From: Nocardioides rubriscoriae
GTDB taxonomy: Bacteria > Actinomycetota > Actinomycetes > Propionibacteriales > Nocardioidaceae
Reading direction: 5' to 3'
Length of the DNA: 64,000 bases
Assembly: GCF_008087085.1 (NCBI RefSeq)
Contig: NZ_VIYJ01000002.1
Location: 62,001 to 126,000, forward strand
Shown: piece after piece, positions 24,955 to 54,688 of the stretch
Layout: every line of letters begins with the position of its first letter
Numbering within the stretch: the stretch's first letter is position 1
Notes under the pieces: model-generated
Seen by the model: only the letters and a program-made list of their open reading frames with translations
Database searches by the model: none
What the model was told of the DNA's origin: nothing
Made by a program: the position numbers and the translations under genes

Positions 24955-25884
24955 ATGAGTCGTCGGGACTGCCTGCTCGCTGCCCTCGTGGCGTCGATCT
25001 GGGGCTTCAACTTCGTGGTGATCGACTGGGGCATGGACGACGTGCCGCCGCTGCTGTTCGTGGCGGTCCGCTTCACCGTCGTGCTCGTGCCGGCGGTGTT
25101 CCTGCTGCCGCGTCCCGACCTGCCGTGGCGCACTCTTGCAGCCGTCGGCTTCTTCATGTCCCTGGGCCAGTTCGGGTTTCTCTACGTCGCCATGGACGCC
25201 GGGCTGCCGCCCGGTCTCGCGGCGCTCGTGCTGCAGGCCCAGGTGATCTTCACGGTCGTGATCGCGGCCGGGGTACTGCGGGAGCGTCCCTCCGTGGCCC
25301 AGGCGTCGGGGGTCCTGGTCGGTTCGGTCGGCCTGGTGGTCGTCGCGGTCGGACGGGGAGGCCAGGTGTCGGCCCTCGCCCTCGGCCTGTGCCTGCTCGG
25401 GGCCCTGTCCTGGGCGATCGGCAACGTCGTCTCCCGCTCGTCGGGCGCGTCCGGAGGCCTGGCCCTGACGGTGTGGTCGGCCGTCGTCGTCCCGGTGCCC
25501 CTGCTGGTGCTCGCGATGGTCGTGGACGGCCCCTCGACGGTGGTCGACGGCGTGGCGGCGTTCGGCTGGCAGGCGGCGTTGTCGACGCTCTACACCGCCG
25601 GGCTCGCCTCCCTGGTCGGCTACGGGATCTTCAACACCCTGCTCTCCCGCAACCCCTCCGCGGCCGTCGTGCCCTGGGTGCTGCTGGCCCCGGTGGTGGC
25701 GATGGCCTCGGCCGCGGTGCTGCTGGACCAGTGGCCCAACGCGGCCGAGGCGACGGGTGGCGCGGCCATGGTGGCCGGGGTGCTGGTGGCGCTGCGGACC
25801 GGGCGGCGGCCCCTCACGTATGGACCTCGACCCCCTGTGAGCGCAGGTGGTCGACCAGGACGGAGCGTGCGGCCGGTGCGGTGA
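24955..25884 (+). CDS. EamA-family amino-acid/metabolite exporter
   Basis: The 309-residue, ten-helix protein resembles the O-acetylserine/cysteine exporter group of EamA transporters: 'LLAALVASIWGFNFVVIDWGMDDVPPLLFVAVRF', 'FGFLYVAMDAGLPPGLAALVLQAQVIFTVVIAAGVLRERPS' and, in the second repeat, 'PSAAVVPWVLLAPVVAMASAAVLLDQWPNAAEATGGAAMVAGVLV'. ATG at 24955 is preferred; a TTG three codons earlier is possible. Its last 71 bp overlap the 3' end of the convergent TetR gene, giving a Pro/Arg-rich tail that may be dispensable. Probably controlled by the divergent LysR. Confidence 0.87.
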   Translation: MSRRDCLLAALVASIWGFNFVVIDWGMDDVPPLLFVAVRFTVVLVPAVFLLPRPDLPWRTLAAVGFFMSLGQFGFLYVAMDAGLPPGLAALVLQAQVIFTVVIAAGVLRERPSVAQASGVLVGSVGLVVVAVGRGGQVSALALGLCLLGALSWAIGNVVSRSSGASGGLALTVWSAVVVPVPLLVLAMVVDGPSTVVDGVAAFGWQAALSTLYTAGLASLVGYGIFNTLLSRNPSAAVVPWVLLAPVVAMASAAVLLDQWPNAAEATGGAAMVAGVLVALRTGRRPLTYGPRPPVSAGGRPGRSVRPVR

Positions 25885-26461
25885 GCCTGCCGGTGCACAC
25901 CCCGAGCACGAGACCGTCGACCAGGGCATGCACCGCGTCGACGAGGTCGGCGCGCTCACCCACCAGCCGGGAGACGAGCGCCACGGTGCTCGCGTCCTCG
26001 TCGCTGAAGTAGCCGGCGAGCGCGACCCGGTCGGGGTCGACGTCCTCGACCGGCGCCGCCGCGCCCGTGCCCGGTGTCACGGGGTCGCACCAGCCGCGGG
26101 TGGCGACCTGGTAGCGCTCGGCGAGGTCGTGCGCGCCCTGCTTGGACGGAATGGTCCCGTGCTGGATCCGCAGTCGCAGCCAGACGATCGCGGCGTCGGT
26201 CGCCTCGGTGTCGGGCAGGAGCTGTTCGAGGACGGGGAGGTGGTGCCGCCTGCGGCGCCGGTGGGTCTCGCACGCCTTGGCCGCCAGGGCCGGCAAGGAC
26301 ACGTGGTCGCCCAAGGTGCGCCGGGCCATGGCGTCCGACGCCCCGAGCTCGGCGGCCAGGCCACGTCGGCTCAGGACGGCCGGTCCTTCGCGCCGGACGA
26401 CCTCGAACGCGGCCTCGGCCAGCAGCTCCAGCTGGGCTGCGTACCTCTCCCACCGCTTCAT
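25814..26461 (-). CDS. TetR-family transcriptional regulator
   Basis: The 215-residue product has an N-terminal TetR-like DNA-binding domain ('YAAQLELLAEAAFEVVRREGPAVLSRRGLAAELGASDAMARRTLGDHVSLPALAAKACE'; the usual F-x-K/Y recognition-helix residues are altered) and a helical ligand domain ending 'VDAVHALVDGLVLGVCTGRLTAPAARSVLVDHLRSQGV'. The target is unknown. A TAGAAC box (26473-26468) six bases before the ATG fits a leaderless mRNA. Overlaps the EamA gene tail to tail. Confidence 0.8.
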   Translation of the reverse strand: MKRWERYAAQLELLAEAAFEVVRREGPAVLSRRGLAAELGASDAMARRTLGDHVSLPALAAKACETHRRRRRHHLPVLEQLLPDTEATDAAIVWLRLRIQHGTIPSKQGAHDLAERYQVATRGWCDPVTPGTGAAAPVEDVDPDRVALAGYFSDEDASTVALVSRLVGERADLVDAVHALVDGLVLGVCTGRLTAPAARSVLVDHLRSQGVEVHT

Positions 26462-26563
26462 GCCGCTGTTCTACCGGCATCGGCACCCCGCGCGCTCCGG
26501 TCATCCACAGGCTCCACGACACGCGCAGCCCACGTCGTGCTCGCCCCCGCGGCGCGGCGCCAA

Positions 26564-26763
26564 GTGACTCAGGGTGCGTCGTGTTCTGGGGGTGCTGCTG
26601 GGGTCGGGTGACTCGGGGTGCGTCGTGTTCTGGGGGTGGTGCTGGGGTCGGGTGACTCGGGGTGCGTCGTGTTCTGGGGGTGGTGCTGGGGTCGGGTGAC
26701 TCGGGGTGCGTCGTGTTCTGGGGGTGGTGCTGGGGTCGGGCGACTCGGGGTGCGTCGTGTTCG
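26564..26763. repeat. 44-bp minisatellite A: four full units and a partial fifth
   Basis: Units start at 26564, 26608, 26652 and 26696; a fifth breaks off at 26763. They begin GTGACTCGGGGTGCGTCGTG. Units 2-4 are almost identical. The period is not a multiple of three, so successive units read in different frames; it is not coding. G-rich on the plus strand. Confidence 0.92.
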
Positions 26764-26850
26764 GCCGGTCCCTCGGGCGTGCGATGACCAGCGCGGGCGG
26801 TGTCCGCAGGCAGCCCCCGAGGCACACTGCGCTGCCGTCCTCTAGGACCA

Positions 26851-27035
26851 GAAGTCGACGCGGGATGGGTCAGTCGATGTGTCCGGGGTGGGGCGAAGTC
26901 GATGCGGGGTGGGTCAGTCGATGTGTCCGGGGTGGGGCGAAGTCGACGCGGGGTGGGTCAGTCGATGTGTCCGGGGTGGGGCGAAGTCGACGCGGGGTGG
27001 GTCAGTCGCGGCGTCCGGGGTGGGGAGAAGTCGAC
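26851..27035. repeat. 44-bp minisatellite B: four full units and a short partial
   Basis: Units start at 26851, 26895, 26939 and 26983; 9 bases of a fifth follow. They begin GAAGTCGACGCGGGGTGGGT. The sequence is unrelated to array A, 87 bp away, yet the period is again exactly 44 bp and the plus strand again G-rich. It ends 11 bp from the stop codon of the convergent GNAT-Nudix gene. Confidence 0.92.
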
Positions 27036-27045
27036 AGACTGCTCG

Positions 27046-27990
27046 TCAGCCCATCCCGCTCTCGGTGTAGGCCGGCCCCGAGCCCAGGTTGGCCAGGGCC
27101 GCCGCGATCCGGCGCGCGGTGAAGTCGGCGCAGCGTGCGGCGACCTGCTCGGGCGTCAGGAACTCCGCGGTGCGGATCTCCCGGGCCTGGGGGACGATCT
27201 GCTCGGTGATCGCCGCTGGGACGACACCGCCGTCGAAGACCAGGCACAGCGCGTCGTCCCACCCGCCCCATGGCGGCAACCAGTCGGTGAGGACCAGGGG
27301 GCCGGCCGGGATCGATAAGGCCAGCTCCTCGGTCACTTCGCGCGACACGGCGAGCTGGGGCGACTCGCCGACCTCGACGACGCCGCCCGGGAGGTCCCAG
27401 TCCTGCTTGTAGGTGAGCTGGCAGCACAGCACCCGCCCGGACTCGTCGCGGATCAGCATCTGGCTGATCGCGCGCTTGCGCGGCAGGAACGAGTTGAGCA
27501 GCGAGCGGAACGCCCCCGGCTCGCTCAACGGCGGGTCGCTCGCGAGACGGGCGAGCACGACGTACTCCTCGGTCTCGGGGCGTTCGCCGGTGCCGGGGGC
27601 CACCCGCTTGAGGCCCTCGCGGCGCAGGCCCGAACGGGTCGCCACACGCAGCGCGGACTCTGCCGTGACATCGACCTGCGCTTGGACCCGGCTGAAGCCA
27701 CGGCCCCCCAACGGCTCCTCGGTCAGCGCCCAGTCGGTGGCGACGCGTACCGCACGGGTGGCCCAGCCGTGCCCGCGGTGCCCGGCGTCGAGGGCGTAGG
27801 TCAGCTCGCCGGTGTGCTGGTCGACCGTGCGCAGCTCCACCGTGCCGACCACCTCGCCGTCGACCTCGACGACGAACCTCGCCAGGTCGGCCGGGTCGGC
27901 GCTCCGGTCCGTGCTCGCGTCACCGGCGTGTGGACGCAGGGTCACCGACCCGTCGGTGAGCGTGGGCTGCTCGGCGCGCTGGTGACTCAC
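27046..27990 (-). CDS. GNAT acetyltransferase - Nudix hydrolase fusion
   Basis: The 314-residue product joins two domains. Residues ~5-150 are a GNAT domain ('GEVVGTVELRTVDQHTGELTYALDAGHRGHGWATRAVRVATDWAL', acetyl-CoA loop R-G-H-G-W-A). Residues ~165-300 are a Nudix domain with the box 'GGVVEVGESPQLAVSREVTEEL'. The substrate is unknown; Nudix domains hydrolyse nucleoside-diphosphate-linked compounds. The GTG at 27990 is chosen because a TAACCT box ends six bases upstream (leaderless) inside the glgB stop region; a GTG one codon earlier exists. It follows glgB by 9 bp, so read-through from the glgE operon is likely. Confidence 0.8.
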   Translation of the reverse strand: MSHQRAEQPTLTDGSVTLRPHAGDASTDRSADPADLARFVVEVDGEVVGTVELRTVDQHTGELTYALDAGHRGHGWATRAVRVATDWALTEEPLGGRGFSRVQAQVDVTAESALRVATRSGLRREGLKRVAPGTGERPETEEYVVLARLASDPPLSEPGAFRSLLNSFLPRKRAISQMLIRDESGRVLCCQLTYKQDWDLPGGVVEVGESPQLAVSREVTEELALSIPAGPLVLTDWLPPWGGWDDALCLVFDGGVVPAAITEQIVPQAREIRTAEFLTPEQVAARCADFTARRIAAALANLGSGPAYTESGMG

Positions 27991-27999
27991 CACGCCAGG

Positions 28000-30264
28000 T
28001 TAGTCGGCCGGGTCAGCCGGTCGGGTGGTCGCCGGCCTGCGCGGCCCGACCAGCCACAGCGACGCCAGGGGCGGCACGACGATGTCGGCGTGGGCCGGCA
28101 TCGACCCGTGCGGCCCCTCGACCGCGAGCACGGAGCCGAGGTTGCCGACGCCGGAGCCGCCGTAGGCCGTGGCGTCGGTGTTGAGCGCCTCGGTCCACAG
28201 CCCGGCCGAGGGCAGACCCAGGCGGTAGCCGTCGTGCGGGACCGAGGCGAAGTTGGTGACGCAGACCAGGTCGGGGGCATCGGAGGCGGCCGGAGCGCGG
28301 CGCACGAACGAGTAGGTGTTGCGGCCGCTGTCGTCGGCGTCGACCCACTCGAACCCGGCGGCCGACACGTCCCCGGCCCACGCGGCCGGTGTCGCGACGT
28401 AGGCCGCGTTGAGGTCGCGCACCAGGTCGGACAGGCCGCGGTGCTCGGGGTGCTCGAGCAGCCACCAGTCGAGCTCGCGGGACTCCGCCCACTCCGACTC
28501 CTGACCCAGCTCGGCGCCCATGAAGACCAGCTGCTTGCCCGGGTGGGCCCACATGAAGGCGTAGTAGGCGCGCAGCGTCGCCAGCTGCTGCCAGCGGTCG
28601 CCCGGCATCTTGCGCAGCAGGGAGCCCTTGCCGTGCACGACCTCGTCGTGCGACAGCGGCAGGACGAAGTTCTCGGTCCAGGCGTAGGTGATCGCGAAGG
28701 TCAGGTCGTGGTGGTGCCACTGACGGTGCACCGGCTCACGCGCGAGGTAGTCGAGCGTGTCGTGCATCCAGCCCATGTTCCACTTGAAGCCGAAGCCCAG
28801 GCCGCCGGCCGACGTCGGTGCGGTGACGCCGGGCCACGACGTCGACTCCTCGGCGATGGTGCAGACGCCGGGGACCCGCTTGTAGACGGTGGCGTTCATC
28901 TCCTGCAGGAACTGCACGGCCTCGAGGTTCTCGCGGCCCCCGTGCTTGTTGGGCTGCCACTCGCCCTCCTCGCGGGCGTAGTCGAGGTAGAGCATCGAGG
29001 CCACGCCGTCGACGCGTAGGCCGTCGGCGTGGAACTCCTCGAGCCAGTAGAGCGCGTTGGCGTAGAGGAAGTTGCGGACCTCGGGCCGACCGAAGTTGAA
29101 GATGTGGGAGCCCCACTCCTGGTGCCACCCCCGCTGCGGGTTGGGGTCCTCGTAGAGGGGGGTGCCGTCGAACTTGACCAGCGCCCACTCGTCGGTGGCG
29201 AAGTGGCCGGGCACCCAGTCGAGGATGACGCCGATGCCGGCGCGATGCAGCGCGTCGACCAGCCGCTTGAACCCGTCAGGGTCGCCGAAGCGGGAGTCGG
29301 GGGCGAAGTACGACGTGACGTGGTAGCCCCACGAGCCGCCGAACGGGTGCTGCATCACCGGCATCAGCTCGACGTGGGTGAACCCCAGGTCGGCCAGGTA
29401 GGGGACCAGCCCCTCGGCCATCTCGTCGTAGGACCAGAAACGGCCGCCCGGGTGCCGCTTCCACGAGCCCAGGTGCATCTCGTAGACCGACATCGGCTCG
29501 TCGACCTGGTTGCGGGCGGCCCGCGCGGTCATCCACTCGTGGTCGGCCCACGTGTGGGTCGACTCGAAGACGCGGGAGGCCGTGTCGGGGGAGACCTCGC
29601 AGTAGGCCGCCATCGGGTCGGCCTTCTCGCGCCACTGGTCGTCGGCGCCCAGCACCTGCAGCTTGTACGACGTCCCGGAGGCGACGCCGGGCACGAAGAG
29701 CTCCCAGACCCCCGACTGGCCCAGCTGGCGCATCGGGTGCTCGCGGCCGTCCCAGCTGTTGAAGTCGCCCTTGACCCGCACCGCGCGCGCCGACGGCGCC
29801 CACACCGCGAACGAGGTGCCGGTGACGGTCCCGCCGAGCGGCTCCGCGTAGTGGTGGACGCGGGCGCCCAGGACCTGCCAGAGGTTCTCGTGGCGCCCCT
29901 CGTTGACCAGGTGCAGGTCGACCTCACCCAGGGTCGGCAGGAACCGGAACGGGTCGTCGACGACGATCTCGCCCTGGCCGTAGTCGACCACGAGCCGGTA
30001 GCCCGGGACCTCGGCGATCGCCGCGGCACCCACCCAGATGCCGCCGTGCTCGTGGGTGAGCGGCACGTCGGCGTCACCGAAGCGGACCACGACCCGCTGC
30101 GCCAGCGGCTTGAGGACGCGGAACGTCACCTGGCCGTCGTGGGCGTGCGGTCCGAGGATCGCGTGCGGGTGCCCGTGCTCACCGCGGATGATCTGGTCGA
30201 GCTCGCCCCGGGGGACCTCGAGCGGGACGGGCGTGGCGGCGGGGGTGGGCTTGGTGGTGCTCAT
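28000..30264 (-). CDS. glgB: 1,4-alpha-glucan branching enzyme
   Basis: The 754-residue GH13/CBM48 enzyme adds alpha-1,6 branches. It has N-terminal beta domains ('HPHAILGPHAHDGQVTFRVLKP', 'FAVWAPSARAVRVKGDFNSWDGREHPM'), then the barrel with nucleophile Asp419 in 'GLRVDGVASMLYLD' and acid/base Glu472 in 'CTIAEESTSWP'. Their spacing of 53 residues equals that of E. coli GlgB. 'LPLSHDEVVHGKGSLL' is also present. The ATG at 30264 overlaps the maltokinase stop by four bases (ATGA). It is the last enzyme of the GlgE pathway operon and branches the maltose-1-phosphate-derived chains. Confidence 0.96.
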   Translation of the reverse strand: MSTTKPTPAATPVPLEVPRGELDQIIRGEHGHPHAILGPHAHDGQVTFRVLKPLAQRVVVRFGDADVPLTHEHGGIWVGAAAIAEVPGYRLVVDYGQGEIVVDDPFRFLPTLGEVDLHLVNEGRHENLWQVLGARVHHYAEPLGGTVTGTSFAVWAPSARAVRVKGDFNSWDGREHPMRQLGQSGVWELFVPGVASGTSYKLQVLGADDQWREKADPMAAYCEVSPDTASRVFESTHTWADHEWMTARAARNQVDEPMSVYEMHLGSWKRHPGGRFWSYDEMAEGLVPYLADLGFTHVELMPVMQHPFGGSWGYHVTSYFAPDSRFGDPDGFKRLVDALHRAGIGVILDWVPGHFATDEWALVKFDGTPLYEDPNPQRGWHQEWGSHIFNFGRPEVRNFLYANALYWLEEFHADGLRVDGVASMLYLDYAREEGEWQPNKHGGRENLEAVQFLQEMNATVYKRVPGVCTIAEESTSWPGVTAPTSAGGLGFGFKWNMGWMHDTLDYLAREPVHRQWHHHDLTFAITYAWTENFVLPLSHDEVVHGKGSLLRKMPGDRWQQLATLRAYYAFMWAHPGKQLVFMGAELGQESEWAESRELDWWLLEHPEHRGLSDLVRDLNAAYVATPAAWAGDVSAAGFEWVDADDSGRNTYSFVRRAPAASDAPDLVCVTNFASVPHDGYRLGLPSAGLWTEALNTDATAYGGSGVGNLGSVLAVEGPHGSMPAHADIVVPPLASLWLVGPRRPATTRPADPAD

Positions 30265-47363: not shown

Positions 47364-47401
47364 CACGTCTACGGCCCGTCTACGGCCCGTCTACGGCCCG
47401 T

Positions 47402-48262
47402 CTAGGGCGCGTCGCGCAGGTCGCCGTCGTCGCTCGGCTCGACGCCGGGGTCCTCGGTCGGATCGGTCCGAGGGTCGTCGGTGAGGTCGTCGGGCAGGTC
47501 GTCGGCCGGCTCCTCGCCGAGGTCGTCGGTGGGGTCCTCGGTCGGGTCGCCCGGGTCCTCGCTCGCGTCGTCGGGTCCCTCGGACCCACCGGAGCCGCTG
47601 GGACCGCTGCTGGGGTCGTCGTCCGGCGACGACGACGGCCCGGACCCGGGTGAGCCGGTCGCGGGCTGGTCAGGCGCGTCACCGGTGTCGGTGTCACGGG
47701 GCCCGGCCGGGTCGTCGTCCTGGGGTGCGGTGGTGGTGTCGTCGCCGCCCGACCCGACGGGCACGTCCTGGGCGGCGGGCGGCTCGGACTGCGTCCCGGC
47801 CCGGGCAGGCTTCGGGGGCACTGTGTCCTGGCGCCCGGCCGGCGTGGGCGACGGCGCGGGGGAGGTCGTCGGCGTGGTGGTGGTCGGGCTCTGGGCCGGC
47901 CCGGGCGCGTCCGGGCGCCGAGGGTCGTCGTCGGTGCGCACGCCGTACTGGACGGCGGCGACGACCGCTGCCGCGGCGACCGCCGCCAGCACGGCTCCCA
48001 CCTCGGGGCGCAGCCCGCCCAGGCGGGGCACGGACCGGGGGACCAGCCGCGACATCAGGCCGGACGCGGTCGGACCGGGCAGCAGGGGAGCGCCGGCGAA
48101 CAGCGCGAGCATCTCGGGGCCGGGCTGCGCCGGGCCCGCCACCACTCCGGCGCGGGTGGCGGCCAGCCGGTCGGCCAGCTCGCGCAGGTCGGGCGGCAGG
48201 TCGGGGGGCGTGCTGCCGAGCGCGCCCTGCAGGACCTGCTCGGACTCGAGGTGGGTGATCAT
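47402..48262 (-). CDS. Probable anti-sigma factor with an Asp/Pro/Ser-rich outer domain
   Basis: The 286-residue product has a short cytoplasmic helical N-terminus (1-90: 'MITHLESEQVLQGALGSTPPDLPPDLRELADRLAA'), one membrane helix (~88-106: 'VGAVLAAVAAAAVVAAVQYGV') and ~180 residues of low-complexity Pro/Thr then Asp/Glu/Ser. The ATG overlaps the sigma-factor stop by four bases (ATGA), the standard sigma-anti-sigma layout. No HxxxCxxC zinc motif is seen, so it is not a ZAS-type anti-sigma. The acidic outer region may bind cations or wall polymers. Confidence 0.65.
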   Translation of the reverse strand: MITHLESEQVLQGALGSTPPDLPPDLRELADRLAATRAGVVAGPAQPGPEMLALFAGAPLLPGPTASGLMSRLVPRSVPRLGGLRPEVGAVLAAVAAAAVVAAVQYGVRTDDDPRRPDAPGPAQSPTTTTPTTSPAPSPTPAGRQDTVPPKPARAGTQSEPPAAQDVPVGSGGDDTTTAPQDDDPAGPRDTDTGDAPDQPATGSPGSGPSSSPDDDPSSGPSGSGGSEGPDDASEDPGDPTEDPTDDLGEEPADDLPDDLTDDPRTDPTEDPGVEPSDDGDLRDAP

Positions 48263-54632: not shown

Positions 54633-54642
54633 CGTGCGCCGG

Positions 54643-54688
54643 ATGAGGGTGGCCGGATGAGGGTGGCCGCGTGAGGGTGGCCCGATGA
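54643..54688 (+). promoter_or_regulatory. Chain of three overlapping 5-codon ORFs leading into nadD
   Basis: A ~14-bp unit (ATGAGGGTGGCCGG) is repeated three times. Each copy reads start-Arg-Val-Ala-x-TGA, and each TGA overlaps the next start: ATG 54643, ATG 54657, GTG 54671, then the nadD ATG 54685. Each copy also carries a GAGGGTGG Shine-Dalgarno-like sequence. It may pass terminating ribosomes on to nadD, or be a slippage duplication of its initiation region. Confidence 0.6.

Follow-up and report, generated by a model that had tools for sequence, protein, structure and literature searches.

REP/BIME elements, which go with RAYT transposases, are extragenic imperfect palindromes found near gene ends. 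The repeats described here share these traits, but nearly all of their copies lie in arrays of fixed spacing, alongside a TetR-like gene that itself bears an array. Non-coding satellite families are known from Leptospira interrogans (37, 46 and 69 nt) and Methanocella conradii (37 nt) (PMC6749651). Like our repeats they are intergenic, have long units, occur at several loci per genome and mostly have a period not divisible by 3, whereas a binding protein, a mirrored architecture and a species-specific core go unmentioned in the part of that account available to us (PMC6749651).

Among TetR-family proteins, RefZ of Bacillus acts on division and has five near-palindromic RBM sites whose positions are conserved across species, SlmA of gammaproteobacteria is reported to spread on DNA, and both are able to act as chromosomal landmarks (available part of PMC6657595). 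RefZ resembles the present case in pairing a TetR-family protein with a handful of near-palindromic chromosomal sites, and it is not a classical repressor; its five motifs are placed relative to oriC, whereas ours form mirrored 44-bp arrays (PMC6657595, same part). SlmA, too, is a DNA-binding protein of the TetR fold, with dispersed SBS motifs as landmarks (PMC6657595, same part); array binding in our case is predicted. In contrast to its dozens of chromosomal sites, we find few arrays, and the gene in 6 of 209 genus genomes. Among the matches listed in literature searches on tandem, intergenic and palindromic repeats and on TetR arrays, none described this system.

The locus lies in a stretch of 64,000 nucleotides of Nocardioides rubriscoriae (contig NZ_VIYJ01000002.1, positions 62,001 to 126,000), referred to as the window. 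The genome of the window is labelled G000, other G labels denote comparison genomes, and the genus is Nocardioides. The features discussed are as follows:

25814-26461, minus strand: gene for a divergent TetR-like protein of 215 aa (P0006), the proposed array-binding protein; start codon 103 bp from the array
Residues 42-50 of P0006: predicted recognition helix SDAMARRTL, placed from the TetR-like layout and a low-confidence model
26564-26762, plus strand: left arm (array A), five L-type sites TGACTC-N5-GCGTCG (TRF and site scan)
26566, 26610, 26654, 26698 and 26742, plus strand: 15-bp cores of the left arm, 44 bp apart (site scan)
26763-26850, no strand: gap between the arms, with a weak off-phase match to the centre site at 26790 (3 mismatches; weak evidence)
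26851-27035, minus strand: right arm (array B), four R-type sites, reverse complement TGACCC-N5-GCGTCGAcTTC (TRF and site scan)
26857, 26901, 26945 and 26989, minus strand: 15-bp cores of the right arm, 44 bp apart, plus a decayed fifth at the edge
27046-27993, minus strand: gene with GNAT and NUDIX domains, the locus marker; stop codon 11 bp from the array edge

The initial annotation had described two unrelated minisatellites with the same 44-bp period. Both arrays are real by TRF (array A, 26564-26762, period 44, 4.5 copies, 98% matches, score 377; array B, 26851-27035, period 44, 4.2 copies, 95% matches, score 328), and their plus strands are G-rich, as had been noted. The remark that the period is not codon-related also holds, 44 being no multiple of 3, and a coding repeat was set aside for this reason. 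The arrays sit between the stop of the GNAT-NUDIX gene, which is not thought to be part of the array system, and the start of the 215-aa gene. The interval 26564-27035 holds both arms, but the feature belongs together with the gene at 25814-26461.

The claim that the arrays are unrelated did not survive comparison. On the same strand, units A and B match at 23 of 44 positions at the best circular offset (shuffle P 0.41), whereas unit A aligns with the reverse complement of unit B at 18 of 44 positions, over TGAC-C-N5-GCGTCG--TTC (shuffle P 0.014). Since this P-value alone is modest, the mirror relation rests more on the full set of arrays: L-type sites (GACCC-N5-GCGTC) stand ahead of R-type sites (the reverse complement) in 17/17 arrays of three species, weak off-phase edge matches aside. 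A symmetric centre, GACCC-N5-GGGTC, lies between the arms in 10 of these 17. It is frequent at other loci and not recognisable in the window gap, where the distance between arms, from site 26742 to site 26857, is 115 bp and out of the 44-bp phase. Arrays A and B are therefore two arms of a single dyad-organised array, whose repeated units we consider likely binding sites for the TetR-like protein encoded at 25814-26461.

When the units were sought elsewhere in G000, as the initial annotation had proposed, five further arrays came to light (C26:183.5 kb, C26:73.7 kb, C23:498 kb, C1:30.5 kb and C28:161.8 kb), which carry the core GACSC-RCCCC-GSGTC or close variants of it every 44 bp. This makes six arrays in G000, against eight in G133 and three in G215, one of them split across two contigs; a weak G215 array on C104 (L157) was excluded from the counts. 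The core with up to one mismatch matched G000 100 times, compared with 51 for a reversed control. Spread by a transposase as REP/BIME- or MITE-like mobile repeats, tolerated behind genes, would account for units that are palindromic, extragenic and abut 3' ends, and for the three solitary copies among the 23 exact 15-bp cores of G000. REP/BIME elements, however, are mainly palindromes that stand singly or in pairs and number from tens to hundreds, and here the other 20 exact cores all fall within the six arrays, outside which the best match to a two-site model has an E-value of 0.0055. Some array positions are, moreover, orthologous between species, and relatives of the protein were absent from searches of plasmids, phages and viral contigs (with P0006, P0004 and A2 as queries, respectively). 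We regard a mobile-repeat origin as very unlikely.

Two cores 44 bp apart, with up to 3 mismatches, occurred in 3 of 215 Nocardioides genomes, namely G000, G133 and G215; the reversed control of this pattern gave one match, in one of the 215. The same three were the only ones among 341 family genomes to match the two-site model R1 below an E-value of 1e-6. At an E-value of up to 0.01, 89/341 matched, the best beyond the top three being G196 (2.3e-5), G112 (2.9e-5) and G733 (3.9e-5), although these E-values are rough and weak ones were treated as unproven. On inspection the G196 match was a decayed array, while no cluster of three sites was found in the 11 kb around the weak G112 match. Over the phylum, a three-site pattern was found in 1/396 genomes, G000 itself, in a sample with few close relatives. 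An exact contig scan, which may omit records very near the window, returned G215 and one Streptomyces contig.

Three array loci have conserved gene context. At locus I (NUDIX gene, array, TetR-like gene) and locus II (rodA/mrdA), the array is present in G000, G133 and G215; at locus III (glyoxalase-like gene), it is present in G133, with a decayed one in G196. The remaining array loci had no common flanking gene in the comparison and are therefore not counted as orthologous. Between orthologous arrays the core, the period and the mirrored order are constant and the spacers differ. G163 and G086 have 81% identical NUDIX matches, yet no period-44 signal: reading of the sequence revealed that the NUDIX gene runs directly into the next gene and that array and TetR-like gene are both absent there. 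In a NUDIX tree, G000, G133, G196, G215, G086 and G163 form one clade with a support of 100/100. The three gene-bearing species were grouped in 0% of 200 bootstrap trees; a single origin in G000, G133 and G215 is nonetheless compatible with the well-supported branches taken alone.

We then considered the spacing of sites in three species, counted over 18 locus pieces that represent 17 arrays. Neighbouring sites were 43-45 bp apart in 106 of 119 cases (78 at 44, 24 at 43 and 4 at 45), several G133 arrays having 43-bp arms. The scan, which allowed up to 3 mismatches, also picks up weak off-phase sites at the edges of arrays; of the 13 spacings that fall outside 43-45, all of them counted, nine come from such edge sites and four lie within arrays (two in the window gap, 41 in L082 and 87 in L090). 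Spacings shifted by one turn were absent, with 0/119 at 33-35 and 0/119 at 53-56, so that the absolute distance, beyond phase alone, seems fixed. The initial annotation had suggested comparing period and copy number in relatives, with free variation as a sign that 44 bp is not constrained. Between species, free variation of the period was not seen: at the orthologous locus it is 43-44 in G000, G133 and G215 and 44 in G024 and G193, with about 5 to 10 recognisable sites.

The constancy of length is accompanied by replacement of the sequence between sites. Among arms of different loci (368 pairs, 28 arms), identity over the middle 13 bp of the spacer was 0.38, against 0.32 after shuffling, compared with 0.54 against 0.31 for the first 6 bp and 0.47 against 0.255 for the last 10 bp. 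Within arms (14 arms with 48 units; those with fewer than three 44-bp units were excluded), half-sites differed from their own arm consensus at 6/480 positions, a count biased downward because sites were chosen by core similarity; the six bases adjoining the core differed at 11/288 and the N5, middle and last-10 blocks at 90/1344. Functionless slippage minisatellites with a period inherited from a single ancestral array would give near-identical copies within an arm and a copy number that varies between species, both of which are seen. To this extent the earlier guess of a slippage hotspot fits, but it does not explain why arms with unlike spacers share one period: from locus to locus the mid-spacer sequence is almost random, whereas the repeat length of 43-45 bp and the half-sites stay constant. 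Slippage would leave the period free between loci, and 44 bp recurs even with the other cores of G193, G024 and G140 described below. The mirrored order in all 17 arrays, the co-occurrence of arrays with the protein and the change of the core together with the helix also speak against slippage, to which we give very little probability. A CRISPR array was set aside, the spacers here being near-copies within an arm rather than unique.

With the 215-aa protein as query, a genus search recovered 6/209 genomes at E<=1e-6. Identity was 57% for G215 and 59% for G133, and 33-38% for the distant G193, G024 and G140, whose proteins are 31-34% identical over alignment A2. At locus I, this protein identity of 57-59% between species compares with 90-92% for the nearby glgB-like gene. 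We name the protein TetR-like; its sequence scores fall under the Pfam curated cut-offs: TetR_N appears below threshold in G193 (13.6 bits) and G024 (14.3 bits) only, of six proteins (cut-off 24), and TetR_C_6 below threshold in 4/6 (best 26.0 bits, cut-off 27), with other sub-threshold family names also appearing. An NCBIfam search gave no match above cut-off. Profile A2 matches the solved bacterial 'Transcriptional regulator' chains 4jnn, 4kwa, 4nel and 4ich at E-values of 5e-6 to 3e-5, and SimReg2 2y2z at 0.005. An AlphaFold model of P0006 from a two-row alignment has a pLDDT of 49 and predicts helices at 3-25, 32-38, 43-50 and 56-69.

A seventh member, in G131 (93 bits), has its gene split in two frames. 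Beyond these, G163 and G112 gave weak profile matches (9.1e-7 and 2.2e-6; 30 and 29 bits) over the N-terminal half only, and no array of three or more sites was found in G163. No homologue was detected at an E-value of 1e-5 in G196, which has the decayed array and an assembly 89% complete. Around eight weaker TetR relatives of 44-53 bits (G992, G125, G825, G853, G847, G1073, G037 and G901), no 44-bp array was seen within 1.5 kb by autocorrelation, which can miss decayed arrays.

Presence of the protein coincides with that of the arrays. Close relatives were found in G000, G133 and G215 only, among 209 genus genomes, and these are the same three that carry a TGACCC-N5-GCGTCG pair at 44 bp. For the distant relatives in G193, G024 and G140, TRF and autocorrelation, both independent of the core, revealed a mirrored period-44 array directly upstream of the gene, at about 58-97 bp. 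In all seven gene-bearing genomes the distance from array to start is about 55-106 bp (for G215, by coordinate subtraction). In G131, three decayed sites exactly 44 bp apart lie upstream (spacing P 0.016; summed score in 0/2000 shuffles). Here the TetR-like gene extends across two reading frames (L203:1501-2151) and the upstream array is decayed, as if gene and array were being lost together.

The cores of the distant relatives are GTGGAAC-ACCCC-GTGCC in G193, TGGAAC-ACCCT-GT in G024 and GTGTCAC-GACCT-GGGTC in G140. In alignment A2, the helix SDAMARR or SEAMARR goes with the core GTGACCC, and VNTIRR or VNTVRR with GTGGAAC; ISTVRR or VSTIRR goes with GTGTCAC in A2 plus G131, where the decayed sites are less clear. 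In the sequences compared, core and predicted recognition helix change together over three protein groups. About three independent contrasts underlie this joint change, since members of the same helix/core class are in some cases closely related and in others may be: G000, G133 and G215 are close kin, and G193 and G024 share 83% identity in their glgB-like genes. The own core of G193 recurs in arrays at two further places, C364 and C183 (which overlaps C399 by 98.5% over 409 bp at the ends, the two being counted once), that of G024 in an array at one further place, and G140 has the array beside its own gene and none elsewhere. In this own-core pattern search, the reversed control matched G000 once, G193 twice and G133 once, and the pattern GTGKMAC gave five matches in G133, all within its own arrays and out of register.

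Of the three guesses in the initial annotation, protein-binding arrays are best supported by these comparisons. The sites are imperfect palindromes of about 22-25 bp, (gaa)GTGACCC-N5-GCGTCG(nnTTC), a size and symmetry that would suit a protein dimer. Most likely, one TetR-like dimer would bind each palindrome, with sites every 43-45 bp in two mirrored arms, and the protein would bind the remaining five arrays of G000 as well. Upstream of its own gene, the array would probably serve autoregulation. The constant pitch hints at contact between adjacent dimers, or at a set geometry. The proposal of four helical turns with repeated sites on one DNA face is not borne out, since 44 bp amounts to 4.19 turns at 10.5 bp per turn and neighbouring sites are not strictly on one face.

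We also examined the gene context of the arrays. Of 21 arrays with both neighbours called (locus pieces L089, L090, L238, L240 and L158 do not have both and were left out), 14 have co-directional genes on either side, 7 sit where two genes converge, and none is flanked by a divergent pair. The closest gene 3' end is within 83 bp for 21/21, with a median of 18 bp. Among ordinary gaps of at least 100 bp, 68/217 were divergent (Fisher P 0.0007 against 0/21), gene calls for the 3'-end statistic and the control coming from a home-made caller of the same design. As locus I is represented four times and locus II three times, distinct arrays number about 16, for which the chance of 0/16 divergent is about 0.002 from the control fraction.

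These positions bear on the reading that the protein is an ordinary TetR-type repressor, the arrays its unusually long operators and the flanking genes its targets. The TetR-like sequence, the array about 55-106 bp upstream of the gene in 7/7 genomes, and the 14 arrays between co-directional genes, where an adjoining promoter is possible, are compatible with such a regulon. The common operator position between divergent genes is, however, never used, and the 7 arrays between convergent genes have no neighbour promoter to control. The flanking genes, which we take from reading their proteins to be rodA, EF-P, a helicase, a glyoxalase and others, have no evident common theme by eye; all gene names used here except GNAT, NUDIX and TetR-like were assigned by such reading. 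We think a classical regulon unlikely.

The position behind stop codons could also point to an element acting at the RNA level, as terminator hairpins or structured repeat RNA, or to G-quadruplex DNA, given that the units are imperfect palindromes and that the window array has quadruplex-like runs (12 starts on the plus strand). Folding of the window array was, however, no better than that of shuffles on either strand (z -1.0 and -0.27), no terminator-like site was found, and Rfam gave no match within the array and none reaching a family threshold in 25500-28500. The quadruplex motif was present in 0/18 other arrays, and the half-sites conserve a mismatch of C against C that is unnecessary for a hairpin. 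An RNA or quadruplex element thus appears highly improbable.

Elsewhere than at its own gene, a bound array might form a local boundary, a roadblock or a chromosomal landmark. Such a role is favoured over the classical regulon because the arrays lie behind stop codons, none is between divergent genes and the adjoining genes are functionally unrelated; by analogy, we prefer it to operators of a metabolic regulon, tentatively and at less than even confidence. As with SlmA and RefZ, several near-palindromic sites go with one TetR-like gene (six arrays in G000, eight in G133), binding being predicted. For placement of arrays near the terminus or the origin, we sampled 20 stretches of 12 kb each in G024 and G140; the GC skew was noisy, and reading the opening 9 kb of the two contigs turned up no gene recognisable as dnaA. 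It is conceivable, though we hold this loosely, that we are dealing with a satellite-DNA system with a dedicated, fast-evolving binder, whose phased nucleoprotein blocks act as transcription or chromosome boundaries, or which is a self-maintaining pair of binder and satellite. If the boundary or landmark role is true, the protein would be another TetR-fold chromosome marker after SlmA and RefZ, and not a gene repressor, and this would explain why the sites keep their 44-bp pitch although the sequence separating them is replaced. The analysis proposes a concrete protein-to-DNA assignment for tandem repeats normally dismissed as minisatellites, and offers three natural pairs of recognition helix and half-site that can be swapped in vitro.

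Several further repeats were observed. In G196, the decayed array at the glyoxalase locus (L158:5558-5721) is of the GACTCGGGGTGAGTC type at 43-44 bp, the TetR-like gene not being detected in this 89% complete assembly. The same genome has an inverted repeat, CTCACTTGGCCGATG ... TCGGCCAAGTGAG, directly behind the NUDIX gene (L164:2394-2450), at the position of the array in other species. At the NUDIX locus of G013 (L171:1340-1507) and G079 (L172:2421-2640) we found mirrored arrays of the TGACCCGGCCC-GAACTTC type, with a unit of 22 bp, half of 44; no TetR-like homologue was detected in either genome. Streptomyces sp. NRRL WC-3626 (L075:5843-6033) carries five units of 44 bp in a single orientation, whose palindromes are of the TGACGC-AGGGY-GCGTCA type. 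We link it to the system at most tentatively, as the units are not mirrored and a TetR-like homologue was not found at an E-value of 1e-5 (150 of 174 first-look candidates scored). The arrays of G196, Streptomyces and G013/G079 could be relics or sites of other proteins. In G166, contig C1, the two-site model matches five stretches of 61 bp equally well (L161 and four further places, 23.3 bits each), which are probably a repeated element. Finally, TRF detected two shorter repeats in the window, neither with a period that is a multiple of 3: a 14-bp unit, GCCGGATGAGGGTG, with 3.6 copies at 54638-54688, and an 11-bp unit, CGTCTACGGCC, with 4.4 copies at 47366-47413.
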